Positions 111 through 41,054 of a stretch of 64,000 nucleotides of DNA are shown here, piece by piece. The first letter of the stretch is position 1. Each line of letters starts with the position of its first letter. The position numbers were made by a program, and so were the translations under genes. This stretch comes from Liolophura sinensis (Eukaryota > Mollusca > Polyplacophora > Chitonida > Chitonidae). Below the pieces are notes generated by a model. The model made no database searches. It had not been told where the DNA came from and saw nothing but the letters and a program-made list of their open reading frames with translations. The stretch covers positions 8,120,281 through 8,184,280 of the forward strand of contig NC_088301.1 in NCBI RefSeq assembly GCF_032854445.1, in the 5' to 3' direction.

Positions 111-391
111 CTTGATATACTAATTCCCATGTAGCTACGAGAACACGGCGAATGCGTACAATGTCCTCGGTGTAAACATGTATATTCAGGAACACTGGAA
201 TCATGACATCATAGCGATGGAGAACTACTGATCTGTCCACACTGATGACGTCATACGATCCCCTAGCTCCTGTGACATTCATCTCAGCTAGTTTCGCTAC
301 AACTTTTGTGGCATTTATTGGGCTACAAACTGAGCTGTCCAAGTACGTAGTGTCGTTCCTTATGAACACTACCAACTTCCAGAGAGATTTC
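111..391 (-). CDS. Module 17, long exon 42 (short partner off window)
   Basis: Acceptor TTTTTTCAG, donor CAAG/GTAAAG; phase 2 to 1. It encodes LWKLVVFIRNDT, INATKVVAKL, TGARGSYDVI, YDVMIPVFLN and VATWELVYQG. Because it ends in phase 1 with an intact donor, at least a short partner exon must lie to the left of base 1. Confidence 0.85.
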
Positions 392-3300
392 CTGAAAAAA
401 AATGACAGCGCCATTTTGTAAAAAATTATCAGTTTTTGTGTATGGTTAGCACTTTCTTTATCAGCAACCGTGGACGAAGAAGGTAGAATGGTTTTGCAAA
501 AATGAAACCAAGTTTCAAGAAACATCACACGGACATGCATGTACCCCTCATCCAATCACAACATTTGTGCAACGGCCACGTGGAACAAAGTTACACGAAA
601 ATGACGTCCAACCCATAATGCACGTAGGCAAACCTGATGGGTAACTCGTGAAACTGCTTCCCGTCTGTATCAAAGCCGTGATTTCATTTGTTCTTTCCTT
701 TATTACATCACAATTACCGGTGTATCTGTGCTCACAGAACATATATGAAGTACACACGCAATGCAAAGTCACAGAAGAAAACGATGCCTTCTACTCTCAT
801 TTGGACCTTCTTTGTAGATCGTCCTCGAGTCTCCCCTTGGGGTAAATGACGTATACAACAAGAACATATATCACAGCACATCGTGTGTTGTTTTCGGTGA
901 CATCACTCTGGTAATATGGAGAAATATATATACATACCCATGCTTGTCAACAAATTCCTCTTGATTTGTTATTGTCACACTGTGTTCCTCTGCAAATATA
1001 ATTGTTATCAATAATTTGCATTATACATTCAACTAAAGCAGCAGTGAGAGTGTCTCTTATCACATTTAAGTCATATCTAATGAGGCATTTTCAGGATACT
1101 TAGTTTTCACGAGATTATTTGTTAGATTGATAGTTCGTCAACGTAATACGGAGGAATTTTTCACTGAGGCCTGAAGATGTTATGTTGATTATGATTCCTG
1201 TTAAAAAGGCCATGAAAATAAAGGCATTTTTTTCTAAACACACACCTATATAAATAGACGATGACCATACGGCTTCGACTGCTTCCTCAAAGTGTATGAA
1301 ATCAGTGACTTTGACCTCTCGTGACACGTAAAGTGGAAAGTGCCACCTGTACTCCACCAGCACGTCTGACGTCACTTCCTCCGCTTGATAGACGTCACCA
1401 GAGATTGACGTCATAGCACTAAATATCTGTTGCAGCATAGTATCATTGATAACATGGATGGTCTCGCGGTCAACTAACGTCTGGTCAACCAAAATGACAT
1501 ATTCTAGGCGCCAAACTGTAATCCTGTTTAGTATAGAAAATATTTAGCAAATATACATCTTGGTAAAGTACACTTCTCACAATGTACCAAATAATGCACA
1601 GTATTAAGATCTATTCTTCAATATATCGGCTATCTGCGGAGTCGAAAATGGGAGACCTATTCAAGCGCAATGGCGACTCAAGTCCAAGCAGAAGTGACAG
1701 GTGTTCTCTTATAATCGGCTACGTAAGTACTATGCCACCAATTTGCTAACAAATCGTAGCTGGCTTCCTCTGGCTGAGAAAGTCTGCCAGCAACCTGATG
1801 ACGACAGCGTGATTCCCCCGAGCTCTAGCGGGTTTCTTTTCACCATAATATTCTTGAGCACAGCGTAAAACACCAGTCAAATAAATAACTAGGAAATAAT
1901 TGTAAACAAATATGTCAGTGAATACATACCATAGTTGCACATGTATTATGTGTTTACCTACATGTACGTTCCATTTATGCAGATGTGCTTACCATTTCTC
2001 ATCTTTCAATACAAGGTACGATTGTTGCCTACTGAAATTGACATCCAAACAGCCACACGTGAACCACTCTGAAAAATGTTAATAATTACAAGGATTATGT
2101 AAACTACACGCAAAGAGAACAGCGTCCATTGGAAAAAACCTGACTGAATGTACAGAGCTGCCTAATAGTCGCAGCTAAAAACTACTAAGTTTCCTGATGT
2201 AGCTCTTTGATGACATATTAGATGACGAACACATAGCGTGTCAGTTTTGTTCCCATAGAACTAACAATGTAATTGTAAAAAATGTTCTCCATGTACTTCG
2301 TTGAACTACGCTATCTCACAAAGGCTACATTTTTATACAGTAAATCTGAACGAAAGTTGGTCAACACAGTTTCTTGGCAAAACGTAAGCCGACGTCACGC
2401 ACCCGTTCTCATCTGGGTCGGTTATTACTCTTGAAAAAGTCTTTGTGTTTGGGTTTTTTTTTACTGTACCTTCATAAACTGACTGCCAATAGGACTTGAT
2501 AGCAGACGACACTGTGTTGATGTCAAATAACCCCACTTCCGTTCTCAGGAAGATGGCTTGTGTAAACATGGACCTGATCACGGATTGTTCCTCCACCGTT
2601 ACGGTCTGGTAAGACTGGCCCGTTGGTCGAAGGATAGTCGAGACATGCTGAGTTAGTAGGGTCTGGTTGATATCTACGGATGTCAAGGATTCCACCAGGG
2701 TTTTGTTCACGTGTAGGTAATACACAAGCTTCCAATACGAAACGCTATGGTAAGTAAATAACGGAAAATACAGTAGATTTTTGATGCAACGTTTAAAGTT
2801 AGTAGAAAAGAATAAACCATGTGCATGTAATAGCAATGCATTTTTTGAAAGGAATAATCCGCAGGTAAATTTGTTACGACATTTTGCTTTACAAATATCA
2901 ATGTAATGTTGAGGTAAGAAGTCATATTCTGTGCATGAAGGAAAAACTTTGATGATAAACGCCATAAAGGGGGTGCAGGAATAAGCCGATGTAGTTTCAG
3001 AAGCATACATGGACAAGGTATCAAAACAAATGGTTTCCAAAGAGTAGTGATAATGAATTAAAGCAAACTGGAGTGAGTAGATTTCTCCAATTAAGTATCA
3101 TTTTAGTCCATTGCGTAACATAATACACGTATTTTAGTTTCCTTCAAGAGGTTAAGACACAGTAGACCTACCCTTTGGCGTCCACCACTTCTTCCTGGTT
3201 GACAATGTCCACACGCACACAACTGCAGTTCTTGTAATCTGGTGAAAGTCACACCATGTAAACACGATGAATTATGCTTAGAAAAAGAAGCCTGATTTTT

Positions 3301-6300
3301 TTTTGGATTTATATGGGTGGTGTTTAATGTCTTCCTCAAGAATTGTTCGTTTACGTCACTGTGGTCAGGTTAATGACTTTCCTGAGTAAACCACAATCAC
3401 AATTCGCTAAAGTCCCTGAGAAACCTATTGACTAAGCCGCGGCCCGACTGCCAATTTATAACATCTTATGCCAACGGATTTTAATCTAGAGACAGTTGTG
3501 CATAAACTTCACAAATATATGGTGCGAGAACATTTCAACATTATAGAATTGAAATACAACACCGAACAACTCTTCACTAAAATTGTCCATCATCTAATCC
3601 AAACGGAAACCTTTGCAACTGTTCACTATTCTTGCAAACAATATTTGATAAAGTAAGGATCCAACATATTTGTATGTGTCTGACTAAAGATGCAAAAGTA
3701 ACAAATATGAAATTAAACTATGTCTCGTATCCAACATTCCACTTTACCTTCTTTTGTTTCCTCCCACACCTGAACTAATGCGGTTTCGAACCGTGAATAC
3801 TGTTGTACGGATACTCGTGACGTCATATACACCGAAAAGTGATATCGATACTGAAGTAACGAGGTCCCGCTCACTACGGTGAAGAGCTGACCACGCGGGC
3901 CTCGTAGTGCGTCCAGTTTAATGCTGAGGTCAGTATAGTTCAGGACAGGCAGCGCAGATGCCGGTAAGTAATGGTTATCTTGTTTCGCGAAGCAAACCAC
4001 TTTCCAGACGGTTCGGCTTGAACAGAAATTACGAGCATCCAAAATAACAAAGTTTTTTTCTAAAAATTCGTTTAACTTGTGCCAAATGCACATTTATATC
4101 CAGACAGGCATACTCTCAAAGAAAATAATGGTTTACATAAAGCAATTGCCTACTGTGTCTTTTACAATCAACTGACGATTTAGCTGGTGAATGGAAAATA
4201 CCACTACCTTAAAGAGGACAGACCTGTACACAAGCCATTATGGCTGGTCTAGAACCTTTGTACCACTACCTTAAAGAGGACAGACCTGTAAACAAGCCAT
4301 TATGGCTGGTCTAGACCCTTTGCTATCAAAGGAATACAAACCTATAGTTCCTCTTGTCAGCTTAACTTAATAAGTGTTAATCCGAGAATCGAGAAAAAAC
4401 TAAAATTACTATTTTTGTGTATATGTCACAGGCTTTAGGGGGTGGTGAATTCAAATACACAATTATCTCTCGTCTGTTACAATGACATGATTAAGGCATA
4501 TAAAGCATGTATGTTGTTAATTTCAAAATACTTACCCGGTCGCATCCAGATATTCTTCCTGTCGTTCTATTGACACTGTGATGTTTGCTTCCATGGCTAA
4601 TTCAAGAAACAGTGAATGTCATAAACACTTGATGGACAAAGTAACGATACAAATCAGAAATGTGTTCAATACGAGTGTTCAACTTAACAGCAACGGCTTA
4701 AAAAATGACAATCCAAGTGTTTTCAAGCTATAAACACTGTCAATAAAATCTCCCTAATTTATCAGATGAATGTTTTAAAAAAACTAAAGCTTCAAATAAA
4801 GGCAAAAGTCATATTTGGATTTCAAGTGCTAAATATACACATCCGATACCGGTAGAAAACAGGTCGGTTTCCACCGAAGGCGATTACACCAAAATGTGTT
4901 AAGTACACATTTATTGCTTAGGTCATTTAGTTGAAGTCCCCCATGCCCCGTATGGTTTTGAAGCACTTACATCAGGAAAATACTTGTCTGTCAGCATCAA
5001 CTACAAACCCATATATTAAAGACAGCGGGAAAGTTGACATTTTACAGTAGCAAGCATACATACTAAAGCATTGTTGTGACAACAACACTAGCAGGTTTCA
5101 TAATCATTACATAAGTCGAAAACATCTGTTTGTTACCATGATGACAATAATAGCCAGTCAGTATATCTGCACCACAGGCGAACTGCAGAAAAACTACTAG
5201 CAGGCTAGTTGCACGCTATTATGGTGTCGCTAGGTGCCAGTCTACAGCTACGTGTAGTCTATTATATTACTGTTTTTCAGTTCACCAAAACTGACCGAGA
5301 TCTTACCTGATTGCTTTCCTGCTATCATCTGTGTTAGCTCTGTTTGGACCAAGGCGATGTTCTCTGCGTCTAACTTATTGGTCAGATGAAAAGCAAAACT
5401 GTAGCCATATCGCGTGTATGATAACTGCGTAATACTATCCATGGTGTAAAACTGGTACTGCTTTCTCGGACCTTCAAGGGCAAGGTGAGCTTTCAGAAAT
5501 CTCTCTGACAGATTGTCCACCATAGTTGCGTCTACAGTCGTTCCGTTCACTTTTAAGGTGTAAACCATTTTCCAGAAGGATTGCCTTAATAGAGAAAAAA
5601 GCAAAGTTCCATGTTATAATATGTATATTTGAGCCAAAGCCTTCTGCTGCGAGGCATTGTTGCGTTTTACAGACAGAAGAAAAAATACTTTGTGAACGCG
5701 AAAAAATTCTTAGGGAATGGGAACTATATCTCACCAGTTTAAATACACTGCAATTTGACAAGCTTCTTCAAAATCACTGAATACTGCAGATATATATGTA
5801 TTTTTTAATCCACTTCATTTGGCCTAGGATTTACGTAACTCGATGGAAAGCAGTGATTTCATATAAGTACTACTAATCGAATCCTTTGCAGATTTTACCT
5901 GTGTTCATTCGGAGTCAATGGAGTAAAAAGGAAAACGAAAAAATTCTAATTCAACATTCAGGAAAAAATTGCATTTCGAGAGGCTGCCCACAATTCCTTG
6001 GATATATCATACATCAAAACATTTAAGTTCTACGACAGTGACCTATGGGCAGACCAGGTCGCGGGTTGTGATGTATAAGTTATATATACATTTTACATTT
6101 CGTTAGCAGACAATTACATATATACGAATTTCATATCCTCATCACTCCGAATAAATATTCATTGAAGACAGCTTACCCTCTGTTATCTAGAACCTCCTCT
6201 TGGCGGATGTTGGCTATTTCCACACACGAACACGCTTTCCAAGCTGTAATCACAAAGTTAAAGGGACATTCGGATCTTAAGACCTAACGATCAAAATTTA

Positions 6301-9300
6301 ACTTTTGTGGCTTGGAATATTTGGTGAAACAGCCATCCTTAATCACAAGCCTACTTAAAGCCACAAGTCTAAGTAATTGTAACAAGTCTACTTATAGCCA
6401 CAAGTCTAAGTAATTGCAACAAGCCTACTTATAGTCACAACTCTACGTAATTGCAACAAGCCTACTTATAGCCACAACTCTACGTAATTGCAACAAGCCT
6501 ACTTATAGCCACAAGTCTAAGTAATTGCAACAAGCCTACTTATAGCCACAAGTCTAAGTAATTGCAACAAGTCTACTTATAGCCACAAGTCTAAGTAATT
6601 GCAACAGGCTTACTTAATGAAAATAAACTTATTTAATCACAACATACATGCACTTAATCAATCAAATAGAATAAATCCAAGACCCCTACTTAATAAGAAA
6701 GTAGTGCATTACTATAATAAGATTACTATTACCATAAATTGCTGCATCACACTAATCGGATTTCCATTCAAATTATGTTCACATAACTGTCACAAAATCA
6801 CCTGTTTTGCATTTTAAATGTTAGGTTGGTGAAACACCACGAACATACAGATTTGAGAGTACATATGCAAACCTTACCCTCGTTTTTCTCTTCCCAAGCT
6901 TCTATTAGTTGAGACTCCAATTCTGCGAAGCTCTCAGTGGCTACTTTTGTAGTAGCAAACAATGTAAATTGTTGTCTGTACTCAATGACCGATACGTCCT
7001 GACTGACGGCACTGAAGCCCTCTCCATTTGGTGTCTTCACACCGACAAGATTCTCGTGTAAAACTGTCACGTTTATTTTCTGCCAATCTCCAGAATGAAT
7101 AACTGTGTTGTTGTAGTTCAGGCTGTATTCGAACTTCCAACGGGGATTCCTGTAATGGGTTAAGATGGAACTTTCAAGATAGCAATTACATTCCTAGTAA
7201 GTTAATGAAGATTAACCGCCATACTGTCGTTACCACTCTGACACTACCCTCCATGCTGTAATCTTTTGCAATGCATTCTTTTAGTTCGGAGCGTAAAATT
7301 TGTTTAACTATATAAGGCCTTTAACTTCACGTTTATAAAATTATGTTTCACCTGTGAAATGGTCTTAAAAAGTTTTATGTGATTTTATAAAATAAATACA
7401 CTTCGACCGGCAATTGCTCCATAAAATAACACAAGATAGGGCGAGAGTTACGAGTGACGAAGAGATTGTGGACTCAAGAAAGCAGGTTTATAATAAAGTC
7501 ATACGTTTTGCTGAAAAACCTTGACACAAGACAAACATTACATCTCCACGATAACGCTAGGTGTATTAGTCCTCACATTTAACCTCGTCAGAATTTAGTT
7601 AAAATATTTCGACTGAGCGGAAAAAGAAAACACCCTAACTGTTAGAGAAGACTGGAAATAAATTTGGATTGCTTTTCGCGATGAACGTCAGAAACTTCGT
7701 CAAGACCTTGCAGGAACATGACAACGCATGACTTGACTTGATTGCATTGTTGTAAAAGAACACAAAATTTGAACTGAATTCTAATTAGACTCAGTTTTCC
7801 CGATCTTACCCTTCAGTATCCGTATACTCCTTCTGGCGAATAAATGTCACCTTCAGCTTGTCTATGTCCAATCCTGTAATGACAGTATACAAAATATTTT
7901 AACTTTACTTAATTTTAATATACAGCCAGGCCAACAAGCGTCGAGGTAAACGTACAACTTCAATCTTAGTATACAGAAATCAAGTGAAAGAGAAAGTTAA
8001 AGTAAAGCCGCGATCTCACCGTGAGGTTTGTGGTAGCGACTTGCCGAAGTCGACCAGTCGAATGAGAAACAACACAAAACGTTGTTTCATATAATTAGTA
8101 AAATTCGACACATCGCAGCGTGCATGCGTAGTTTGTGAAATAGCCTTTGTTTTAGTTTATGTAAATTCCTTTAAACTTTACCATTGAAAACTCTCTAAAA
8201 TACCATCAACTTTATTTCCAAAACACAATTTTTTAAACAAAATAAAACACATAATGTATTTCATTTATAAGGTGCGCTCTCTGTCATAATGATGGCGTAT
8301 CGATGAAGTCACACGATTTTTACGCTGTAAACATAACTGTATTTACTGTCAGGATATATCTTCCGGCAAGTGCACAAATTTCAAAATTCGCTCAATAAAC
8401 ATTACCTATTGATAAACATGCAGCTGGGAAAAGATCGCGAGACTCCAACGAGGCTCAGCAAAATAAACATAGCTCAGCCCCAAAATTCATGTATTTATAT
8501 ATTCATGCCCTTAAAAAACAGATATATTTATGTATAATTTTTAGTGATGATTCAGGGATTTCTGTTGGCTTTTCCTTCAAAGTGTAGAGTGGGTAAGTAA
8601 CAGGTAGGAGTTAGTCTGGATCTGTTTCTCAATAATTGGATTAAAGGTAAACTGAACCTCGTAAAATGGTTTTAATATTTGACAGGAGGCATTCACACCT
8701 CACACTAGAACGAGTCAGTGAGTGCACCAAACCGCGAAATACACTGACAAACCTCCATTGACGGTAGCCCATGTTTTCTTGATGGACATTCCCACGGCTT
8801 CCAAAGACTCCTGAGAGACGTAATGGTTTAGAAAAACAGAGAAAGCACTTTGGGCCATCATCGACTTCTTCACGTTAGCCGTAACCTTGTACTTGATGCC
8901 ATTCGGACCGGAAAACGTAAGCTTGTCTTGCAGATAATGGATGGCCGTCAGTGGAGTTGTTTCCGCATCCACAAGAACCCCATTGAGTTTGATTCTGTAA
9001 CCCACTCGCCATACCGACTCCCTAAAATAACAACATGGAAAGATTACGTGTATTTCAGAGACATCGCAGGCTCAGAGCTGGGAGTCGCCCCTTCCACTGT
9101 AGACGCTAGTCCCTTGACAAATGAGTTTGTCGGTCAGGAGAAGTCTAAAGTCCAGGGGGAGTCACGGTGGTTCCCAGCTCATCTACCCGAACGCCTCCAT
9201 GTATTAACGAGAAATATTTCTGAGCACAAGGCCAAATCCATATTAAATAAATAAACCAATAAATAAATAAATTGTGCGTAACCATAGGCAAATTACTTAA

Positions 9301-30300: not shown

Positions 30301-33300
30301 AGCTACAGCGATAAACGTAAACATTGTCGCTTATGGAAAATTAATGAGGGTCTGTGGCCTGTTGGCGAAGTCTCAAACAAGCATCTTGAATATTGTACAA
30401 TGCGCATGCAAACTGGCCAATGACGACGTCATAAACCTTTCTCTTCCACCAGAATACTTTTCTTGACTGCGGAAGGGATACGATACGAAGCAGAGGTATT
30501 CTGTATTTACATCGCGTGGCAGATATCATTCATTTCCAACGGGCACATCACAAGTTACTATTAAATGAACACGCTTTGCCTGATGACGTAAAGGTTTGGG
30601 ACTTACTTTTGCCGTAACCGCAGTCCGCCACTCCCCCGGGTATCGCCGAGTTGCAGTCATCACCTTTCCATCCGGGGAGACAAGATTTGTGACCGTCAGA
30701 GCCACATGTGTAGTGACCTCTGCAGCTATCCTCTCCCAAACAGAACACCGAGCAGTTCGCACCGTAGTAATTAACATCACAGAACGCAGTCACCCTCAGT
30801 TCTAGCCTGAAAAATGGACATACAGCAGCATAACAGGTGTTAAGAAGGTCGCCTTTAGAGAAAGAGTCCCTACTTTCAATAGCTAGCTCCCCTGGAAATG
30901 TGGTGCTTTATGGACGTAGATCATATTTTCGTACCTTTTCTACGTTCCATTTCCTAGAGCTGAAAATACCAGGCGACACACACATTTGTTATTCAAGAAC
31001 TGAACAATTAAGCGATTTGTGGTCACACGCTGGGACGCATGCACAGATTAAAATGTGCAACCTTCACCCTGCACGATCAAAGACATGAACTTGAAGAAGA
31101 AGTGCAACAACAACGTGCAATAGGGCTGCTCGACACAGTTAAAATACCTTTCTGCGTCCAACAAAATAAAGTGTTGTGAAAATCATAAACTATATTCGAG
31201 TTAAAGCAAACCATCTTCGACAATGTGACAACTGCCATTCTAATCACGAATAACCGTCACGTGACACTATTACGTTTGTAAGATTCTATTTCTAACTGTT
31301 CACGATGACGTTTAAGCTGTGGCACTGTGTACGTCCTTAGCACAGTGGCATAAGCACGGACTGGTAAACACTTGACGGTTTCCGTTATTCCATGATGTTA
31401 CACAAGATTTCACTGCCACACAGTGTTCGTAGGTGAGAGGCAAGGTGGCTACACCAATACATACAAGCAAGACAGAAGGACCACAGCGCTATGAATTTAC
31501 ATGTAAAAAGAACCACTAGCTTCAAACGATACAATTTTATAAAGAACACATCTAAATTTGTGGATCAGCCCATTTTAGAATTTCGAGGGAAAATAAGTAT
31601 GAGAAAGTGAAATATACTTACAAAGTAGCGTTCAAAGATCTGCGTCCTGAGATTTGACGAAGTGGAGCTTGCAACAGAGCGACGCTACGGTTATAGGCGA
31701 CGTCAACGTTTGTTAGGTTGAGGACGTAGGTGTCGACGTTTTGCTCCATTCCTGAGTCGATGTCAGTGACGTTAACTCGAATCTCGAACGTGCTCTGAAG
31801 CAATGACATAATCTTTAATATTGCCATATTTCTTTCCTTTAAATTAATGTGCGGTATACCATTTATCAAGCAAATTTCTGAGATGAAACATAGTTTAAAT
31901 GTCAGTTTTAATAACCACGTGACTTGTATTCCCACTCTAAAATGTTATATACATTGTTAAATTTTCCCGTAAACCTTTACTGAAGAAGGTGCAGTGGGGT
32001 GCATCAGATTCAGTAAGTATACGTTTACTTTTGTAAGATTTATCTTGACAAAGTTTTACAGGTCATGTGTAAACTTTTACTGAAATATTTACTCAAAATA
32101 TGCAATGTGCAATATTACTTTTGCACGTGACAGTGCCTTAGTTCATCTTATAAGTGTGAAATGTTTACTATAAAAGGTAAACATTTACACAACGTGTGTA
32201 AAATATACACAGTAACGGCTGAACGGTTACTGGAAATTCTAACAATGTACAATGGACGTGATCGCTCAATATTTCACTGTTTATACAAGTTAGGTTCAAA
32301 CTGTCAAACTGTCGGGCGTAACCATACAGAACAGTGACGTACGGAGGAAAAGAGTCCATCCCTTTGACCAACTTTTTGTTTGGCAGGCAATACTTCCCAT
32401 TTTATCATTACAGCTCCGACTATAAACATTACGCCACTGATTACGTCCGGGACCTTAACAATGCGGTACCTTGATTTATTTATTAATTTATTTGCCTGTC
32501 TTTTGCCGCCACACATATAAGACTTTTTAACGATCTAATGCAACTATCCATTAATCTGCGAACCTGGAAGTTTGGAGTTGTTAACTCAAAATAGACCGTC
32601 TTTTAGTGCTATGGTCGTGGAAATAAAATATATATTTTATAGTCAATGAGCATGACAAGCTGCAATTTGAACTCGGCTTGCGAATATCCATTTCTTGTGC
32701 TTTGTGGTATTGGTTTAATCTCTAACCTTCCAAACGTTGAACTCAAATGAAACTTGACTTTCAGGAAAACTGTCTATCACATCAGAGTTCAGTGGTCCGT
32801 CGATCACATTCTGTTTTAAGAAACACTCGCTGAAAATACAATCAAAAGGCAGAAATAGTTATCTGACAAGCTAGTTATCTCCCAGGAAAGTTCCATTTTT
32901 GAAATGTATAAAATGTATTTTAGTTTGTGAACCAAATGATGGCATATAAATGGAATACTGAAAAGTGCCCTATCCCGTCCTGTGAAAGAGATAACTTTAA
33001 GCAGTTTAAGAATGGATCCTAGAACGGTTCCAACAGTTTTATTCTGAAAGATTTTGGCTGGCCTGGCTCACCAGAATTTGTCTCGCTTTTCCCCCTCACA
33101 ATTGGGCCTGAGCGTCGTAATAAAAGTGAAATTTATCTAACTGAGTATGGTATTAAACCTTATCAAATATTCATTTGATTGGTATATTACGCCGCACTCA
33201 AGAATATTTCATTTATGTGACGTCGACCAGCATTATAGTGGGAGGAATTCAGCAACGCCAGGGGAAACACGAGCTGGATTTGAACTCACAGCGACCGAAC

Positions 33301-36300
33301 TGGTGAGAAGCTTCTGAGTCATTGTTCGCTGGCGGTGGCGCTGATTCAACCGGCCAATTTAATAACGTCTAAGTCGTACATCAGAAAAACAGATGTTTAC
33401 ATATGGATATGGGTCAGGTAACAAACCAAGCCTATCTCTAGTGACAAATGGTCACAGTTTGGATCAGTGACTGCTTCGTCATAAAATATTCGAGCAAACA
33501 GAACTATGTAAGTGTATGGTGTATTAAAATACGAAAGCAAAGAGTAGTAAATATCACTATGTTAATATCTTACACGCCCAAGGTAATGTATATGTGTACA
33601 TCTTGAAGGGCGTTCCGCTATCATATAACATTGGGCGTTGTCTTGCAAATAAGCCAGCCAATATTCCCCTTCAACAACTCACGCCCCCTATTGACATAAG
33701 ATGGCAATGTCTAGAAATCGCGGTTGTCAAGTTTATCTGCTTGCATAAGCAAGGTGGTTTCACAGTGGCTACACCAGTGGAATGAGTCCTAGAGCTGGAT
33801 ACTATGGCAGAGTCTCATAGTCACATTTTCACCGCTATATATGATCTAAAGCTGTCAATTTATATCACATTAATATTTATCGCCATTAAATGTGAAGGAA
33901 AACTGCCGATTTCTATCATACTAAAATTTACCACCATTAAATATGGCTTAGAAATGCCCATAAATAATGTCTTAGCCTGTTAAACCTATTTGTATGCATG
34001 TGTATTATTGAACAAAAATACATTTACACGTTAGGAAAATGTGAGTGAGTGAGTGCTTGGGGTTTAACGTCGTACTCAACAATTTTTCAGTCATATGACG
34101 ACGAAGGAATCCTTAGGTTGCATGTACGTGTAATGTGCCTCCTTGTTGCAGGACGGATTTCCAATGCTCTTTTATTTAGTGCTGCTTCACTGAGACGACT
34201 TACCGAAGGCAAGTAAGCCGCCCCGCCCGAGCCATTATACTGATACGGGTCAACCAGTCGTTGCACTATCCCCTTCATGCTGAACGCCAAGAGAGGAAGT
34301 TACAACTTCCTCTTTTAAAGTCTTAGGTGTGACTCGATCAAGGATTGATCCTGGATCTACCGGTCCCGAAAAAAATGTGAACAGATTTGTTGGATATGTA
34401 AAGATTTACACAACAAAAGAAATGAGTAAATGAGTCAGTGCTTCGTGTTAATCAAAAGAAATGAGCTACTGGGTACAGATGTTTGCATTGATTCACCACA
34501 CTGAATTCTGGATACGCTTACCTGTTTTTTTCTGTTAGACAGAGCCGGAATCTGTGGTCGCATTGTCCCGTGCAGATGGAAGGATATCCATCACAACAAT
34601 GACCATCGTCCAATTTACTTGTCGGATTTGAAAAACGGATCAAATCCATCTCTATTGTTCCTGTTCCTTCTACACGGAATATCTGAAGATAAGATAGTTA
34701 ACATACCAGAAAATAACAATTAATTACAAAAACGTCTTATTTTCGAAGCTAGACATTAAATACAAGAGCAGACATGAAGCCTAGCTATATACGAAAGTGA
34801 TGATCAAGAATTGCCAAGTCATGCATCGTTAAGGCATATGGTTTACCAATAAATCAATGCGCGAATCAATTGACTAAACTAGTATGTCCAATACTCGGCC
34901 TACTGGATTATTATGTAAATGCATATTTCATGTCGCATGCAGTTGTAAAGTCCACCTGGGTCCTCCGTGCCTCAGTTGGTTAGCGCGCTAGCGCACCGCA
35001 ATGACCCAGGAGTCTCTCACCAATGCTGTCGCTGTGAGTTCAAGCCCAGTTCATGCTGGCTTCCTCTCCGGCCGTACGTGAGAAGGTCTTTCAGCAACCT
35101 GCGGATGGTCGTGGGTTTCCCCCTGGCTGTGCCCGGTTTCCACCCACCATAATGCTGGCCGCCGTCGTATAAGTGAAATATTCTTGAGGCGTAAAACACC
35201 AATCAAAAAAAAAAATAAATGTTAAGTCCACTCCCACCAAGTCACTGTTAATTATGCGATCTGGCGACCTTGAGAGTTGTTATTTCAAAATTAAGAGTTG
35301 CCTCAGACATTTATGGCAAAAACTGAAGTTTTGGAACAACACCACAGGCTGATTTTAGTTTAAAGCAGATTATAGTAATCCTGAGAGCAGATCTTAGCCA
35401 ATTTAGCTTGAATTTTGATACAAGGTTCAAAACTGCTCTCGTTAAAAGAACATACGTGCGTATGTATGTATGCATGTATATTTTGACGTCGTACAGTCAT
35501 TAGGTCTGTGTACATATACGGTGTCTCCTTATGGCAAGGCGTCTCCGTTCCGCCAAAGTGCTTCCTCCACTGAAGTATAATGGCGAAGACACCAGACATG
35601 ACACCCTACCCAATCACAATGACTGACACCGGGACAACCAATCCTAATTTCCATGCTCTAACTTCTAAGAACTAAGCACAAAGCGAGGCAACAACAAGTA
35701 ACATGTTTAAAGTCTTTAGTATGACGCGACTCAGGTTTGACCAAAGGTGTCCCGGTGTTAAGTCAGCTCAGGAAGTCCATAATGCAGTGACACAGTACTT
35801 TAGGGAATGGCTACCTACAAGGAAACGTTGTCGTGATACGACCACTGCAAAAATTTCCAGCAAGCCATGTTAAATCTTGCGCAAACAATTAGAGCAGGAT
35901 TGCGCAACGTTTAAATAAATAGGAAGTTTGTTGCGATGAATCATACACAGGAGATGCAGTGAAGCAAGATGTAAAGGTTTCTGTCTTCATGGCTCTGCTG
36001 GGTTGAGTTTAATGTCGTCTCAAGAGTGTTTTACCTTTATGAATAAATGGAAGTGTTCGGAGTAAACCACTAACCTCTGGCAAGTAACTTAACGAACTTT
36101 CCATATGTGACATTTGACACATTTGACACATTTCACTCGTATGCACTCAAAAAATTAATCTGTTCATTTTAACAGAAAGTCTGTTATCTCAGTGATGCTA
36201 GAATGTATTCTGTTATTGCAGCAGATTAATTCTCCTAAATATGACGCACATATTCTATTTAATTCAACATAAAGATTGCACTACACTAACAGGATGTTAT

Positions 36301-39300: not shown

Positions 39301-41054
39301 AGTTAAAAAAGCCAGCGTGTTATTCAGTGTGTACCATGCCCATGTCTGTGGGCCGTTCACAACATACTCCTTACATACATCAATGCTACCGATGAAATCT
39401 TTTTGATAACGCCATATAACATGATCCTAACGGACAACTGAAGCAATTTTATCAATGAATACTGATTGCAGGTCATCAGTGCACATCAAGTCTAAACTTG
39501 CCTATACATGTGTTGAACAGGCTCCAGTGGGCAAGCTTGTCTAGTGGTGGCATGGATGTAAAGGGAGAGTAGAGACGCATTGTGTGGGCTTGTTTATTTA
39601 TTTATTTATTTGATTGGTGTTTTATGCCGTACTCGAGAATATTTCACTTATACGACGGCGGCCAGCATTATGGTGGGAGGAAACCGGACAGAGCCCGGGG
39701 GTAACCCACGATCATCCGCAGGTTGTTGGGGAGGCCTTCCCACTTACGGCTGAACGTTGTGTGGAGAACAGAGCGCAAATCTGGCTGTCTCATTTGTAAA
39801 GACCCTATCACTATTTCCGACCGGGTCAATTGGGCTGCAGTTAAGCCCCGTGTTGAGATTGTTTACATCGCTGAGTCTTTACGTCAGGAGGTTTGGCCGA
39901 TGGTGATGACTCTTTCCTGGTTTCGCTCGTTTCCTTTCACCCGTTAACCTATAGCCACATTCGTACAAATGTACATATTTATGTGAAAACGGCACTAAAC
40001 CCTAGCTGTAATAATGCAGTAAGGTTTGTGGGTCGGTGGATTACTTAATGCCAGTCAGGTACTCTTCGCCTATAAACCCGGCGACCGTCATTCAGGTGAA
40101 GCTTGTATAAGAAATTAACAAAAAAGGTGTCTACCTGCACAGCTAGTTTCCCATGTATGCTAAAGAGCTGATCTATGCACGCTTCATTCACAGTTATCAA
40201 CAAATGGATAAGATGTGGAGCGAATAGGCGCATGTCGAAATGTAATGCAAAAACCATGTCTTTGGCGATTATCACACTAATCAAAACATGAAGTGGTTTG
40301 CCGACTGACAAAACAAGCGCGAGGAAAGCTGGTATCGATCTGTTCGATTTCTGATTATTATAACCACTATCGCTAATATAATCACATCAGATGTCTGTTC
40401 TATAGGCTCGGTGAATTAGCTATACACATGAACAGTGCCTGGGAATCATTTACCTATTAAAATTTCTGCATGTTTTCGCCAAGTTATAGTACTAAAATGT
40501 TGCCGAGGGGCGTTAAGTTATAACCATCAATCACTCATTCATAAATGTTAAAACAGAGGTCGTACATGAAGTAGTCGTCCGGATGACCTACTTCGTTTTG
40601 CACCTAGCAATTATGCTTTTTGTAAAATCAGTTTTCAGGCTGATCGCCGCTGGACGTCTCCATATATACATGGTGATTATCAGTAGTATAGCCATGGCCA
40701 TACAAGGTCGGCTTTCATGTGCACGAAAACTAAGGTCAAATATGTTATCTCCTAAAACATCTGTATGATAATGATAATAAAAAGACGCACTATACGTTAA
40801 CACCACTTTACCACATGATTTGATTTCATTGCCAGTGTATTCTTCTAGTAGCCAATTCATATGTGTGTCAATATAAGCTACACAGTAGCTGTTGTGATTT
40901 GTTGTTGTTGTTCCAGTTTATACTATAAACGTGTGATGTTTGATAAAAATGAAAATAACAGTTAACATATTAACAACATACAGAACACGGAATTTGTAAT
41001 ACAACTCACCTGATACCAAACCAGTAGTAATCCAATTAACATGGGCAACTCCAT
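111..41054 (-). CDS. Notch-ligand-like (MNNL-DSL-EGF) giant protein with mucin stalk and 17+ tandem modules; 42 exons, 3' end off window
   Basis: I joined 42 exons by hand; every junction is GT-AG and every phase matches, giving 7744 nt (at least 2581 residues). Domain order: signal peptide (1-15), MNNL (about 16-160), DSL (about 161-227), unassigned beta-rich domain (about 228-333), EGF-like (about 334-370), Ser/Thr/Pro-rich mucin stalk (about 370-635), then a tandem array of roughly 110-residue modules to the window edge. MNNL and DSL together define the receptor-binding head of Delta/Jagged Notch ligands, so a cell-surface or secreted Notch-pathway role is plausible. The usual EGF array is replaced by the stalk and module array. 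No membrane segment occurs inside the window; the C-terminus lies beyond base 1. The model is inferred from splice signals and phase, without transcript data. Modules 1-17 are listed separately with their exon limits. Confidence 0.85.
938..1523 (-). CDS. Module 16 (exons 40 and 41)
   Basis: Long exon 1246-1523: VWRLEYVILVDQT, SGDVYQAEEV, YRWHFPLYV, FEEAVEAVWSSSIYI. Short exon 938-989: EHSVTITNQEEFVDKHG, no cysteine. Donors are GTGTGT and GTATGT. Confidence 0.84.
1750..1893 (+). repeat. tRNA-derived SINE (family A), 5'-truncated
   Basis: Degraded body (GCTGGCTTCCTC, TCTGCCAGCAACCTG, CACCATAATATTCTTGAG) ending CGTAAAACACCAGTCAAATAAATAAC. In the intron between exons 40 and 39. Confidence 0.75.
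1993..2744 (-). CDS. Module 15 (exons 38 and 39)
   Basis: Long exon 2470-2744: YWKLVYYLHVNKT, INQTLLTQHV helix, RPTGQSYQTV, FTQAIFLRT, KSYWQSVYEG. Short exon 1993-2068 (76 nt, the longest short exon) encodes TCGCLDVNFSRQQSY with CxC and a longer tail (LVLKDEK). Confidence 0.86.
3172..4016 (-). CDS. Module 14 (exons 36 and 37)
   Basis: Long exon 3748-4016: VWKVVCFAKQDN, LRGPRGQLFTVV, YRYHFSVYM, FETALVQVWEETKEG. Short exon 3172-3238: NCSCVRVDIVNQEEV, the clearest form of the CxC strand. Confidence 0.88.
4198..4322. repeat. Two-copy tandem repeat, ~62 bp unit
   Basis: The sequence from TACCACTACCTTAAAGAGG through GGCTGGTCTAGA occurs twice in direct succession with very few differences, in the intron between exons 36 and 35. 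Confidence 0.9.
4536..5584 (-). CDS. Module 13 (exons 34 and 35)
   Basis: Long exon 5307-5584: FWKMVYTLKVNGT, ALEGPRKQYQF, RYGYSFAFHL, ending TQMIAGKQSG without the usual Trp. Short exon 4536-4596: EANITVSIERQEEY with a sequon and no CxC. Consensus GTAAG donors follow both exons. Confidence 0.87.
6177..7149 (-). CDS. Module 12 (exons 32 and 33)
   Basis: Long exon 6878-7149: RWKFEYSLNYNNT, INVTVLHENL helix, TPNGEGF, YRQQFTLFA, EAWEEKNEG. Short exon 6177-6243: ACSCVEIANIRQEEV with CxC. The 37-bp minisatellite at 6347-6616 lies in the intron between the two. Confidence 0.87.
6347..6616. repeat. 37-bp minisatellite, ~7 copies
   Basis: The unit begins AAGCCTACTTATAGCCACAA and ends GTAATTGCAAC. 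Seven consecutive copies at exact 37-bp spacing with few substitutions, then a partial copy. Intronic, between the two exons of module 12. Confidence 0.92.
7810..9021 (-). CDS. Module 11 (exons 30 and 31)
   Basis: Long exon 8753-9021: VWRVGYRIKLNGV, LTFSGPNGIKYKV, SAFSVFLNHYV, KKTWATVNGG. Short exon 7810-7873: DKLKVTFIRQKEYTDTEG, no cysteine. The GTTTGT donor of the long exon is weak but in phase. Confidence 0.85.
9155..9272 (+). repeat. Degenerate SINE family A fragment
   Basis: Weak similarity to the SINE body, then AATATTTCTGAGCACAAGGC and an AAATAAATAAA tail. In the intron upstream of exon 30. Confidence 0.45.
9366..9545 (-). repeat. SINE family A, 5'-truncated
   Basis: Starts with TTTATTTATT (reverse tail), then CCGTACTCAAGAATATTTCACTTATACGAC, CCAGCATTATGGTGGGAGG and CGCAGGTTGTTGCCAGACC. 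The tRNA-like head is missing. Confidence 0.85.
9713..10310 (-). CDS. Module 10 (exons 28 and 29)
   Basis: Long exon 10039-10310: VWKLVYFVNVKNK, TPTGLSYKLF, FFRFYLNH, QAYYTQYPG. Short exon 9713-9782: DCDCVQVEFPKHQDEL with CxC. The GTAGAT donor is weaker than most. A TTTA-rich tract (10321-10359) lies just upstream of the long-exon acceptor. Confidence 0.83.
10376..10836. mobile_element. MITE-like element 2, copy A (inverted terminal repeats)
   Basis: The left end reads CATGAAGTACATGTCAGATGAAAG...CTGTCCGGGA. The right end, reverse-complemented, reads AATGAAGTATCTAGAAGAT...CACTGTCCAGGAAAATAG. The ends are therefore imperfect inverted repeats of about 50-60 bp. No transposase reading frame lies between them. 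Related sequence recurs near 54.88-55.26 kb and 61.31-61.41 kb. Confidence 0.6.
12339..12945 (-). CDS. Module 9 (exons 26 and 27)
   Basis: Long exon 12671-12945: YWKLVYYMNVNGT opening, LNVSLLNQHV helix, FTGPQGAYVIV, FRYSNALYL, and an EYYLTRLSG end with Tyr in place of Trp. Short exon 12339-12405: EEDIHVTVNGIRQTT, no cysteine. Confidence 0.87.
13975..15129 (-). CDS. Module 8 (exons 24 and 25)
   Basis: Long exon 14849-15129: DYYLRYKGK opening, LNTTSLQEYV helix, GLRYVITP, YRYHFSLFM, KETWLSAHSG. Short exon 13975-14041: GCGCIKVSVSNTEEL with the CxC motif. A SINE tail ends about 8 bp from the donor of the long exon. Confidence 0.85.
14258..14345 (-). repeat. SINE family A fragment
   Basis: GTTTTACGCCGTGCGCAAAAGTATTTTACTTATACGACGGCGG and GTGGGAGGAAAACGGACAG match the 3' half of the element. 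Confidence 0.7.
14760..14841 (+). repeat. SINE family A 3' fragment abutting a splice donor
   Basis: CGGTTTCCTCCCACCATAATG then TTCTTGAGTACGGCTTAAAAC and AAATAATTAAC. It ends about 7 bp from the GT of the exon 24 donor (minus strand). Confidence 0.75.
15311..16320 (-). CDS. Module 7 (exons 22 and 23)
   Basis: Long exon 16034-16320: first copy with the Trp opening (AWKVTYFVSKS), then YHLSSVSADV and YAFSFYSN strands. The terminal Trp is replaced (REVVCRQVTG). Short exon 15311-15377: PKCEDITPVIIRQEG, one Cys only, followed by donor GTAGCG. Confidence 0.78.
16605..16960 (+). repeat. tRNA-derived SINE, second family
   Basis: A tRNA-like head has an A-box-like GGTGGCATGGAGCTTGG and a B box GGTGCGGGTTCAAACCCCC. 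A non-tRNA body follows, ending ATTTCCTCAACCCATGAAAC and TAAATTCTTAAGTATGA. Intronic, between exons 22 and 21. Confidence 0.6.
17230..17440 (-). repeat. SINE family A with partial head
   Basis: GATTGGTGTTTTACCCTGTACTCAAGAATATTTC, then GCCAGCATTATGGTGGGAG and ACCGCATTGGTGAGAGACTCCTGGATCATTTC. The element lies just beyond the donor of exon 21. Confidence 0.85.
17488..18060 (-). CDS. Module 6 (exons 20 and 21)
   Basis: Long exon 17774-18060: LAYFVRQSGE opening, an internal SCGC, GISGSAYKLY, FHFSLYFQK, AAWALRHG end. Short exon 17488-17536 encodes VTVKIVAQEEYVTVSG, with a sequon (NVT) created across the splice junction. A SINE lies 45-50 bp beyond the short-exon donor. Confidence 0.8.
18061..18475. 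repeat. Degenerate ~50-60 bp tandem array with splice-site-like units
   Basis: Diverged units around TTCCTGTAAAGACAATTCCAGGTAAGCAGACAAG recur about seven times, directly upstream (minus strand) of exon 20. The first unit overlaps the pyrimidine tract of the real acceptor. Confidence 0.6.
18685..19554 (-). CDS. Module 5 (exons 18 and 19)
   Basis: Long exon 19286-19554: GIFYTLKVNGR opening, YRYTVY and YRYQLSVYF strands, EEGWKTLHAG end. Short exon 18685-18742: VTSVKVFVARVEQFY, no cysteine. Phases fit the array. Confidence 0.8.
19825..19985. repeat. Fragment of another dispersed repeat
   Basis: GTTCGGAGTAAACCACCGATCTTTACC and TGGATTTGAACCTTGGATCTCAGT (B-box-like) resemble fragments near 11.37-11.45 kb, 28.74 kb and 36.0-36.1 kb that share AGTAAACCAC...CTCTGGCAAGTAACT. 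This is likely an old SINE family. Confidence 0.4.
19982..20752 (-). CDS. Module 4 (exons 16 and 17)
   Basis: Long exon 20448-20752 (305 nt, the longest of the array) has an N-terminal extension with Trp (SQWVVGQE) before DYYLLYKGEI. It continues with LNVTSTSG and KTWSTVYQSAG. Short exon 19982-20030 (49 nt) encodes VSVSIGFVEEFC. Confidence 0.75.
21316..22197 (-). CDS. Module 3 (exons 14 and 15)
   Basis: Long exon 21923-22197 opens KIIYFTTISGK, has YEQKLAFYVKD as central strand, and ends QVAWRTQLNG. Short exon 21316-21373 encodes NEEISVVVPRVTGC; the CxC pair is absent and one Cys lies after the strand. Confidence 0.78.
23078..23262. repeat. Dispersed repeat, copy 1
   Basis: Shares CCATGG(C/T)G(T/C)TAGAGGGCGT, ACCGTATTTCACCGGTTA and the following GTGTGAC...CAACTATCACACTGTC stretch with 46712-46895. 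Unknown family. Confidence 0.6.
23458..24150 (-). CDS. Module 2 (exons 12 and 13)
   Basis: Long exon 23885-24150 (VYYFIHYNG opening, YNLTL strand, HHYMYSLAFES strand, QQTWMNES helix end) with donor GTGTGT. Short exon 23458-23524 encodes SCNCLNVTVVRG, with the CxC motif and an NVT sequon, and has a GTAAGT donor. Confidence 0.8.
24220..24302 (+). repeat. SINE tail fragment
   Basis: GGTCGTATGACTGAAAAATTCTTGATTTAACGACGTTAAA, then CAAATCAAATAAATAAATAAATAAG. A different family from A, on the acceptor side of exon 12. Confidence 0.5.
24925..25065. repeat. SINE-like fragment
   Basis: TGTTTAACGCCACTTTTATCAACA...CCACGACGGTGACTC followed by GGGCTCACCCAATCACAGTATAC resembles the 3' portion of another molluscan-type SINE. 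Confidence 0.35.
25414..26091 (-). CDS. Module 1 (exons 10 and 11)
   Basis: Long exon 25850-26091 and short exon 25414-25483. This is the most divergent copy: it opens RAFVVEFTYTLSITF, lacks the opening Trp, and ends EFAWKRNR. The exon 10 acceptor (ATTACGAAG) has a poor pyrimidine tract. The short exon has two in-frame acceptors six bases apart (start at 25483 or 25477) and encodes CNPCNITVTIPTIEEV, a CxxC variant with a sequon. Confidence 0.7.
26440..26500 (-). CDS. Exon 9: short exon closing rudimentary module 0
   Basis: Acceptor TTGCAG, donor GTTAGT; phase 1 to 2, as for all later short exons. It encodes LTRSDINMTFSVREGIGED, the terminal beta strand of a module, without the CxC motif of many later copies. 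Confidence 0.7.
26939..27850 (-). CDS. Exon 8: end of EGF, mucin-like Ser/Thr stalk, start of rudimentary module 0
   Basis: A 912-nt exon, by far the longest in the gene, phase 1 to 1. It completes the EGF domain (FKGDKCEI). About 270 residues dominated by Thr and Ser with Glu, Pro and Ala follow, with repeated TTT, STT and ETT clusters: a likely heavily O-glycosylated stalk. The last 40 residues change character (HDVNMTYSIVLPGVQD, then an amphipathic helix-like stretch ending AYEAMNP) and look like a shortened first copy of the downstream module. The opposite strand is also open here, an effect of composition. Confidence 0.85.
28225..28305 (-). CDS. Exon 7: first part of EGF-like domain
   Basis: Acceptor CATCACAG, donor GTAATG; phase 1 to 1. 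It encodes GISRCQNGATCIRDD and ends ICCCAPG. With exon 8 (FKGDKCEI) this forms one EGF-like unit with the usual CxNGxTC and GFxGxxC landmarks. There is one extra Cys in the CCC run and no earlier EGF repeat. Confidence 0.85.
29065..29382 (-). CDS. Exon 6: unassigned ~105-residue beta-rich domain
   Basis: Acceptor CACAG at 29383, phase 1 (a second AG five bases on breaks the frame). The donor CAG/GTTTGT at 29064 is weak but gives the right phase to exon 7. The peptide has the pattern YPGRWSGSLSC, then alternating strands (VEISIKSV, SGTVKLEDGAYDVVGTWLG, SLLLLPASGPWV), then KMSFNINHVGTSFTGQVF, then CGHISLTQ. Paired terminal cysteines and repeated G-x-W/F motifs suggest a small lipocalin- or avidin-like barrel; this is inference. 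It occupies the position where Notch ligands normally begin their EGF repeats. Confidence 0.75.
30081..30302. repeat. Two-copy 111-bp tandem duplication
   Basis: The block beginning AAGGCCCAGATTTTGACGG and ending TTTGGGACTGAG occurs twice in direct succession with one visible difference. Intronic, between exons 6 and 5; both copies keep one reading frame open because 111 is a multiple of three. Confidence 0.95.
30607..30806 (-). CDS. Exon 5: DSL domain
   Basis: Acceptor TTTTTCAG, donor GTAAGT; phase 2 to 1. It encodes a complete DSL domain: LELRVTAFCDVNYYGANC, SVFC, GHYTC, DGHKSCLPGWKGDDC. The six canonical cysteines and the NYYG, GHY and CLPGW landmarks are present, closest in pattern to Delta-type ligands. 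An additional Cys sits in the EDSCRG loop, and another follows the domain (ADCGYG), so an extra disulfide is possible. The domain is the core Notch-binding module of the ligand family. Confidence 0.93.
31622..31794 (-). CDS. Exon 4: end of MNNL domain and linker to DSL
   Basis: Acceptor CTTCAG, donor GTAAGT; phase 0 to 2. It begins STFEIRVNVTDID, the equivalent of the GTFSLIIEAWH strand that closes MNNL domains. It continues through a hydrophilic linker with sequons NLT, NRS and NAT. A potential alternative acceptor (CAGAG) lies two bases on but breaks the frame. Confidence 0.8.
32727..32829 (-). CDS. Exon 3: middle part of MNNL domain
   Basis: Acceptor TTTTCAG, donor GTTAGA; phase 2 to 0. 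It encodes a Cys (ECFLKQNVI), a loop with NSDVIDSF, and the strand VSFEFNVWK. The strand aligns with the FPF.FTWPGTF segment of Notch ligands, which continues into exon 4. Confidence 0.8.
33170..33358 (-). repeat. SINE family A, nearly full length
   Basis: GATTGGTATATTACGCCGCACTCAAGAATATTTC, CCAGCATTATAGTGGGAGG, then the head GAGCTGGATTTGAACTCACAGCGACC. Intronic, between exons 3 and 2. Confidence 0.85.
34032..34376 (-). repeat. tRNA-derived SINE, third family
   Basis: GTGAGTGAGTGAGTGCTTGGGGTTTAACGTCGTACTCAAC, then ATATGACGACGAAGGAATCCTTAGG, a long body, and a head ending CAAGGATTGATCCTGGATCTACCGG (B box on the minus strand). A related fragment lies at 37072-37213 in the other orientation. 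Confidence 0.75.
34522..34682 (-). CDS. Exon 2: first part of MNNL (Notch ligand N-terminal) domain
   Basis: Acceptor TTCAG at 34687-34683, donor GTAAGC at 34521; phase 0 to 2. The peptide carries the MNNL signature: a beta strand (GTIEMDLIRFSNPTSKL), then GHCCDGYP, then a Cys cluster, then CDHRFRLCLTEKN. This matches the SFSNPNG...CCDG...CDTFFRVCLK pattern of Delta and Jagged. In those ligands this C2-like domain contacts Notch and lipids. Confidence 0.85.
34962..35220 (+). repeat. SINE family A, full-length reference copy
   Basis: A complete element. The tRNA-like head TCCGTGCCTCAGTTGGTTAGCGCGC (A box) leads to GTGAGTTCAAGCCCAG (B box). The body follows (GGCTTCCTCTCCGGCCGTACG, CAACCTGCGGATGGTCGTGGG, CACCATAATGCTGGCCGCCG), then TAAGTGAAATATTCTTGAGG and CACCAATCAAAAAA. 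It looks like a pseudo-tRNA but lacks a proper cloverleaf, so I do not call a tRNA gene. Confidence 0.93.
36144..36401. mobile_element. Palindromic MITE-like element 1, copy A (258 bp)
   Basis: The left end CACTCAAAAAATTAATCTG...AACAGAAAGTCTGTTATCTCAGTGATGCTAGAATGTATT is mirrored at the right end; its reverse complement begins CACTCAAATAATTAATCTATTAAACTTAACAG. Inverted arms are at least 65 bp and there is no coding capacity. A second copy lies at 50888-51144. Confidence 0.85.
37072..37213 (+). repeat. Third-family SINE fragment
   Basis: The reverse complement reads GTGAGTGCTGGGGTTTAATGTCGAACAA...GACGAAGGAGTCCTTTGAG...GTGCCTCCTTGTTG, matching the element at 34032-34376. Confidence 0.7.
39050..39181 (+). 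repeat. SINE family A, 5'-truncated
   Basis: CAGTCTTCCAGCAACCTACGGATGG, CCTCCCACCATAATGCTGGCCGCCG, GGCGTAAAACACCAATCAAATAAATAAATAAC. Confidence 0.88.
39592..39775 (-). repeat. SINE family A, head-truncated
   Basis: Starts with TTTATTTATTTATTTATTTGATTGG, then the complete body through CGCAGGTTGTTGGGGAGGCCTTCCCACTTACGG. Confidence 0.88.
41006..41054 (-). CDS. Exon 1: start codon and signal peptide
   Basis: Coding exon 41010-41054. The start is ATG at 41054-41052, encoding MELPMLIGLLLVWYQ, a short hydrophobic secretory leader. The donor CAG/GTGAGT follows at 41009 in phase 0, which matches the phase-0 start of exon 2. A second in-frame Met lies at codon 5. The long intron 1 (about 6.3 kb) follows. 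Confidence 0.75.

Follow-up and report, generated by a model that had tools for sequence, protein, structure and literature searches.

Notch ligands are among the best conserved signalling proteins of animals, and endocytosis of the ligand is needed for Notch activation. Delta and Jagged/Serrate carry an N-terminal MNNL domain, followed by a DSL domain, a run of EGF units, a single membrane span and a short tail. A different kind of surface protein is represented by MUC16, a membrane mucin with tandem SEA domains. DSL domains outside the Delta/Jagged plan are already known because of genes from bivalves and Nematostella; in the accessible parts of the respective reports, a screen of 138 lophotrochozoan DSL genes gave DSL-only or DSL-repeat genes without EGF in bivalves (PMC8166818), and Nematostella possesses DSL-only genes together with one gene combining MNLL with three DSL domains (PMC2770060). 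Amnionless has two FxNPxF motifs in its tail, which promote ligand-independent internalisation according to the available portion of the source (PMC8710305).

The locus described here lies in a window of 64,000 nucleotides of the chiton Liolophura sinensis (C7:8120281-8184280, where C7 is contig NC_088301.1) and holds most of a minus-strand gene (gene 1), whose tandem paralogue (gene 2) lies beyond the left edge. Like Delta and Jagged/Serrate, gene 1 has an N-terminal MNNL, then DSL, a single membrane span and a short tail; unlike them, it has one interrupted EGF-like unit in place of the EGF run, with a Ser/Thr stalk and about 26 modules added. It also differs from them in having Arg, not Phe, at the position equivalent to Jagged1 F207, and in the extra cysteines of DSL and EGF. 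Genes 1 and 2 resemble the non-canonical bivalve and Nematostella genes (DSL outside the Delta/Jagged plan, lineage-specific duplication, and in gene 2 also three DSL domains), but no Ser/Thr stalk, module array or membrane span is described for the latter in the accessible text of those reports (PMC8166818; PMC2770060). With MUC16-type mucins gene 1 shares a Ser/Thr-rich region outside a tandem module array, followed by a membrane span and a short tail, but it has a DSL head and its modules gave no SEA match in Pfam scans. With Amnionless it shares an FxNPxF-type tail adjoining the membrane span and a weak, sub-cut-off Pfam match, whereas Amnionless has an ectodomain of SEA, cysteine-rich and beta-helix parts and two tail motifs against one, as far as the available part of the source goes (PMC8710305). 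No protein with an MNNL-DSL head, Ser/Thr stalk, module array and membrane span was present among the matches listed from open-licence papers, a result that says little about absence. Gene 1 is read as a variant of the DSL family, with a repeat that has no convincing match in Pfam or PDB sequences.

For the exon model, the minus strand of the window and its flanks (60 kb to the left, 10 kb to the right) was parsed by splice-aware dynamic programming, and reading frames were used to fix the boundaries. In this model, built on genomic DNA, gene 1 comprises 64 exons and 11,112 coding bases, i.e. 3,704 codons without an internal stop, followed by TGA. The original prediction had 42 exons joining in phase; our own model likewise gives 42 exons in the window (7,744 bases, joined without a stop), from the ATG at 41054 to the end of the last of these exons at 111. 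The parts read earlier from the letters, namely a signal-peptide-like exon, MNNL, DSL, a beta-rich domain, one EGF, a Ser/Thr stalk and modules, were all recovered on the minus strand at the positions where they had been placed (Table 1). At least 17 modules had been anticipated; 17 two-exon units are present in the window and 27, the last truncated, in the whole gene. The sequence to the left, proposed earlier as the place to check, holds the remaining 22 exons as far as C7:8101286: the array continues and is followed by one membrane segment, of the C-terminal kind that had been suggested, and by a tail. AG and GT are present at every internal splice boundary of the final model; compared with the AG and GT sites of the region, these sites have a mean percentile of 96 for acceptors and 97 for donors.

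Table 1. Features of gene 1 (positions are those of the window unless a contig is named; B and A, small and large exon of a module)
Feature	Position	Strand	Description
exon 1	41010..41054	-	ATG and signal-peptide-like MELPMLIGLLLVWYQ; phase 0 at end; in-frame join; judged by eye
exon 2	34522..34682	-	first part of MNNL, the C2-like domain of Notch ligands; PF07657, exon alone 33.7 bits
exon 3	32727..32829	-	MNNL, second part; in-frame join; within PF07657 match
exon 4	31622..31794	-	MNNL, third part, and DIDSG loop; exon start within PF07657 match
exon 5	30607..30806	-	DSL (PF01414) with Arg at Jagged1 F207 column and one extra cysteine; first cysteine of EGF-like unit at exon end
exon 6	29065..29382	-	beta-rich domain, about 106 aa, phase 1 to 1, inside EGF-like unit
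exon 7	28225..28305	-	middle of EGF-like unit; cysteine pattern
exon 8	26939..27850	-	end of EGF-like unit, 255-aa Ser/Thr stalk and half module
module 1	25850..26500	-	B1 26500-26440, A1 26091-25850
module 2	23885..25483	-	B2 25483-25414, A2 24150-23885
module 3	21923..23524	-	B3 23524-23458, A3 22197-21923
module 4	20448..21373	-	B4 21373-21316, A4 20752-20448
module 5	19286..20030	-	B5 20030-19982, A5 19554-19286
module 6	17774..18742	-	B6 18742-18685, A6 18060-17774
module 7	16034..17536	-	B7 17536-17488, A7 16320-16034
module 8	14849..15377	-	B8 15377-15311, A8 15129-14849
module 9	12671..14041	-	B9 14041-13975, A9 12945-12671
module 10	10039..12405	-	B10 12405-12339, A10 10310-10039
module 11	8753..9782	-	B11 9782-9713, A11 9021-8753
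module 12	6878..7873	-	B12 7873-7810, A12 7149-6878
module 13	5307..6243	-	B13 6243-6177, A13 5584-5307
module 14	3748..4596	-	B14 4596-4536, A14 4016-3748
module 15	2470..3238	-	B15 3238-3172, A15 2744-2470
module 16	1246..2068	-	B16 2068-1993, A16 1523-1246
module 17	111..989	-	B17 989-938, A17 391-111
modules 18-27, membrane exon, tail exon	left of window to C7:8101286	-	

A chance control for the gene-finder was run over the array, between window position 27000 and a point 17.6 kb beyond the left edge. The minus strand gave 52 exons, 26 of them strong and 24 of the strong ones in phase 2 to 1; the plus strand gave 28 exons (2 strong, 0 in phase 2 to 1), the codon table having been trained on 20 stretches of the gene 1 locus, which favours the minus strand in this control. 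Five first-order Markov sequences yielded 0 strong exons each. The large exons A (157-305 bases) are in phase 2 to 1 in 26 of 27 cases, the last one, before the membrane exon, being 2 to 0. The small exons B (49-97 bases) run from phase 1 to 2 in 27/27, a count that is not fully independent because four of them (B2, B6, B8 and B26) were chosen with the expected phase as a condition. Each two-exon unit is therefore a symmetrical 1-1 module, of the kind that duplicates without breaking the frame. The model, drawn from genomic sequence, supports reading gene 1 as one gene that would extend from the head to the membrane tail.

A Pfam check for the two head domains, proposed with the original prediction, placed both above cut-off in the joined head (residues 1-408): MNNL (PF07657) at E 1.6e-9 and 37.9 bits against a cut-off of 22.5 (residues 22-125), and DSL (PF01414) at E 1.3e-13 and 51.4 bits against 24.2. 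No EGF model exceeded the Pfam cut-off in the same residues, where one EGF-like unit is recognised by its cysteine pattern, and no VWC domain was matched in the scanned stretches of gene 1 (stalk residues 409-623 lay outside the scan). The putative signal peptide of exon 1 is hydrophobic by eye, yet none of its 19-residue windows passes a hydropathy of 1.6. The stalk is 45% Ser+Thr over 255 residues and, to judge from this composition, may be rigid; the half module that shares its exon matched the module profile at E 0.0019 when three sequences were searched. A 111-base tandem duplication (30080-30302), 99% identical and apparently recent, lies in the intron that separates the DSL exon from the beta-rich exon. 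Elsewhere in the window, minisatellites occur at 58319-59319 (39-base unit, 25.7 copies) and 59583-60234 (45-base unit, 14.4 copies), both overlapping the longest plus-strand open frames in their stretch.

DSL was found at 12 places in the genome: one in gene 1, three in gene 2 and eight elsewhere, of which three are ordinary ligand-like (C6:37.66, C8:21.59 and C6:1.85 Mb) and five divergent. In the alignment of these 12 domains, the column just before GHY is presumably that of Jagged1 F207, as counted along the Jagged1 numbering. It is occupied by Arg in gene 1 and by Leu, Ser and Glu in gene 2; the ordinary domains have Phe, Phe and Ile, and the divergent ones Met, Glu, Phe and two gaps. Phe thus stands in 3 of the 12 chiton domains, and the residue is not a clean marker because one ordinary-looking DSL has Ile and one divergent DSL has Phe. 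In gene 1 the Arg is adjoined by the extra cysteine, and the DIDSG loop of exon 4 lies, by eye, where Jagged1 has its calcium-loop aspartates. According to the accessible portion of the relevant study, the F207A substitution of Jagged1 reduced Notch1 binding to background while liposome binding was kept, D140A/D144A had the reverse effect (liposome binding affected, Notch1 binding kept), and both strongly impaired activation (PMC3888931). The comparison with Jagged1 made here covers the F207 column and, by eye, the C2 loop. On these residues, the head of gene 1 may have retained a lipid function while canonical binding to Notch was lost, and activation of Notch by gene 1 appears doubtful. Gene 1 is probably a recognition or adhesion protein and not an ordinary Notch signal, because its head lacks the residue that a human Notch ligand needs for receptor binding. 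The original prediction had named a ligand, a decoy or an adhesion protein; its MNNL-DSL head is present, but the term ligand has to be qualified in view of the Arg at the F207 column beside an extra cysteine.

The DSL of gene 1 and all three in the paralogue have seven cysteines, the usual six and one extra at one shared column, where the other eight of the 12 aligned domains have none. The EGF next to a seven-cysteine DSL also has seven cysteines, with a CCC run, in 4/4 pairs of genes 1 and 2; the seven further EGFs that the pattern picks out in the paralogue's large open stretch have six each. An extra disulphide between DSL and EGF, conserved across the gene pair, would be the natural guess from these counts. 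Pairing of the extra DSL cysteine with the one 10-13 residues further on was considered and rejected: the latter is more plausibly cysteine one of the EGF that follows, whose surplus cysteine is the one in CCC. By pattern, the beta-rich exon 6 sits between the first and second cysteines of the EGF-like unit, whereas in the paralogue the DSL exon ends in phase 1 and the EGF exon starts in phase 1 with no insert between them. The beta-rich domain therefore appears to have been inserted into an EGF at an intron, as the EGF cysteines flank a phase 1 to 1 exon and gene 2 runs straight on. This exon gave no match over cut-off in Pfam or NCBIfam and none in PDB sequences; its one weak relative in the genome is at C1:82744558-82744749 (E 0.27).

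A profile built from 26 units of about 110 residues finds 26 strong copies in the gene 1 protein and a half copy in the stalk exon. The array has 50 N-glycosylation sequons and 29 cysteines. Pfam returned nothing convincing for the modules in 17 or 32 single exons or in 20/26 joined units; no family listed in these scans hit more than one member, and no E was better than 0.015. Against PDB sequences, the single-exon profile had 0 matches and the joined profile one, at E 0.48. When the large exon A was modelled on its own, the prediction showed two short strands and a helix, followed by a middle part without resolved structure and a long C-terminal helix; no fold match to it was found in PDB. 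SEA membership was suspected because of where the array sits and how its helices and strands follow one another; Pfam gave no SEA match in 32 single exons or 20/26 joined units, and a genome-wide SEA search found nothing, as did its control. A SEA-like fold may span exons A and B. Kinship with KIAA1549 proved unsupported (profile comparison probability 7.6 over 17 columns), and no literature on KIAA1549 with SEA was found. A chiton exon near a weak KIAA1549 match (18.5 bits, below cut-off) starts, after a short lead, with VHVDFYVTVDGEEL, which is reminiscent of module starts. Of two whole-genome single-exon module searches, one gave nine matches (eight at the gene 1 locus including the query, and a weak one with stops on C9) and the second gave two (the query and the paralogue), each missing most known copies. 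Open-frame matches in these insensitive searches were at this locus only. The modules may serve as a spacer or be adhesive.

Hydropathy over 1.6 (19-residue windows) is reached in gene 1 at residues 3624-3652 only. The tail beyond is about 53 residues long, lysine-bearing and ends in FDKEHFSEPVNFNNPSFDNNRHPLDPFSTRSV, with TGA after residue 3704; it contains FNNPSF, a motif of the FxNPxF type, through which the protein may be endocytosed by analogy with Amnionless. The last exon of the paralogue has FENPAF in another frame, and a tail stretch with FDKEHFSE is common to both genes (46.9% over 32 aa, E 0.002). The Pfam Amnionless model matched residues 337-456 of a 468-residue C-terminal piece at E 2.2e-4, below cut-off. 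A genome search with the gene 1 tail returned itself only, missing the known tail of the paralogue.

Gene 2 starts about 5.6 kb past the stop of gene 1, head-to-tail, at C7:8.074-8.096 Mb. Its order is a first-exon candidate (hydrophobic, with the same phase-0 boundary as exon 1 of gene 1, Q followed by GT), MNNL, DSL, an EGF exon, an open stretch of 842 codons, module exons, a run of N near the 3' end and a last exon. The open stretch holds two more DSL domains, a Ser/Thr stalk and EGFs (seven by Pfam, nine by cysteine pattern). Below the EGFs and stalk are at least six large module exons, six of them above the profile inclusion threshold. The gene may hold an assembly error or break, because its last exon reads in two frames. 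Modules had been proposed to replace the EGF array; gene 1 does have few EGFs and many modules, but gene 2 keeps many EGFs, the stalk and at least six modules. The modules therefore did not simply replace EGFs, since gene 2 has the same plan with more EGFs and three DSL domains. In a tree of 32 large module exons, the six gene 2 modules group with A1, A3, A4, A22 and A24-A26 of gene 1, apart from its other 19 (A2, A5-A21 and A23), with weak split support (63/90) and long branches; label tests on the tree gave no significance, equally low values being reached in 369 and 378 of 500 shuffles. There is only a hint here that the middle of the gene 1 array was enlarged after duplication.

Scanning 10-40 kb around the five divergent and one of the ordinary DSL places with the module profile gave five matches at E 0.24 to 1, none convincing. 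The gene-finder, applied to three divergent loci, gave two with numerous EGFs or Ser/Thr-rich exons and one with few EGFs. At C1:87038001-87068000, divergent MNNL/DSL-like exons are accompanied by an EGF-rich exon (about 460 codons). Another exon further along, possibly of the same gene, by eye resembles a chitin-binding (peritrophin-type) domain. A non-canonical gene-like series at C6:43962001-43982000 has MNNL, DSL with Glu at the F207 column, many EGFs and then Ser/Thr-rich exons.

Our preferred reading, to which a probability of roughly 0.55 is given, is that the product of gene 1 is a very long, endocytosed recognition or adhesion receptor, a type I membrane glycoprotein with a predicted length of 3,704 residues. 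From the tip inwards, it would consist of the signal peptide, the C2-like MNNL, DSL, the EGF-like unit with its beta-rich insert and the 255-residue Ser/Thr stalk, followed by about 26 tandem modules, each some 110 residues long; a single membrane span and an FxNPxF-bearing tail of some 53 residues would complete it. The array and stalk would lift the C2-DSL head past the glycocalyx, at a great distance from the membrane. Binding of calcium and lipid by the C2 loop may persist. DSL, with a probable extra disulphide to the following EGF, would bind a partner or site other than the canonical one on Notch, or Notch in another way, and the tail would drive internalisation. Against this stand the Amnionless match, which is below cut-off, the single FxNPxF-like string, which may arise by chance, and gene 2, which with its more numerous EGFs might still bind Notch.

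The same head and tail could belong to a Notch decoy or cis-inhibitor, contacting Notch weakly or in cis and lowering signalling, with endocytosis through the tail removing receptor from the surface. MNNL and DSL are indeed kept over the Pfam cut-off while the Notch-binding residue of Jagged1 is changed, the tail motif suggests internalisation, and mammalian DLL3, a DSL protein acting only in cis according to the accessible part of the source, provides a precedent (PMC4391858). Nevertheless, apart from the identity of the domains nothing points to a Notch contact that was kept, cis binding too could have been abolished by the extra cysteine and the altered loop, and a decoy is considered rather unlikely. 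A true trans-activating ligand, with the array as a long spacer between head and membrane for signalling across a wide gap or glycocalyx, would suit the order of MNNL, DSL and span and the lysine-bearing tail with its endocytosis-type motif. It fits poorly, and is judged quite improbable, with Arg at the F207 column in gene 1, an extra cysteine beside that column in each of the four DSL domains of genes 1 and 2, a single and interrupted EGF following the gene 1 DSL, and ordinary ligand-like MNNL and DSL places elsewhere in the genome. The remaining alternative, two genes or a mis-joined model in which the MNNL-DSL exons form a short gene and the array another, draws on the 6.3 kb between exons 1 and 2 and on the genomic origin of the gene 1 model; however, phases match throughout gene 1. 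Separate head and array genes would need exon 8 to be spliced differently, because that exon spans the EGF end, the stalk and a half module; furthermore, the paralogue repeats the order of head, stalk, modules and tail, and this alternative was rejected as very improbable.

On the most far-reaching reading, which we hold at about even odds, chitons, and perhaps molluscs more widely, possess a new class of giant cell-surface receptor that is endocytosed. Its C2-DSL head would have been freed from Notch by losing the key contact and have gained a DSL-EGF disulphide, and it would be carried by a mucin-like stalk together with a growing array built from a novel domain family; the pair would then show the passage from a signalling ligand to a recognition or adhesion molecule. 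The tandem pair offers a natural test of what a C2-DSL head can do once canonical binding to Notch is gone, and of the amount of spacer that a ligand can accommodate.
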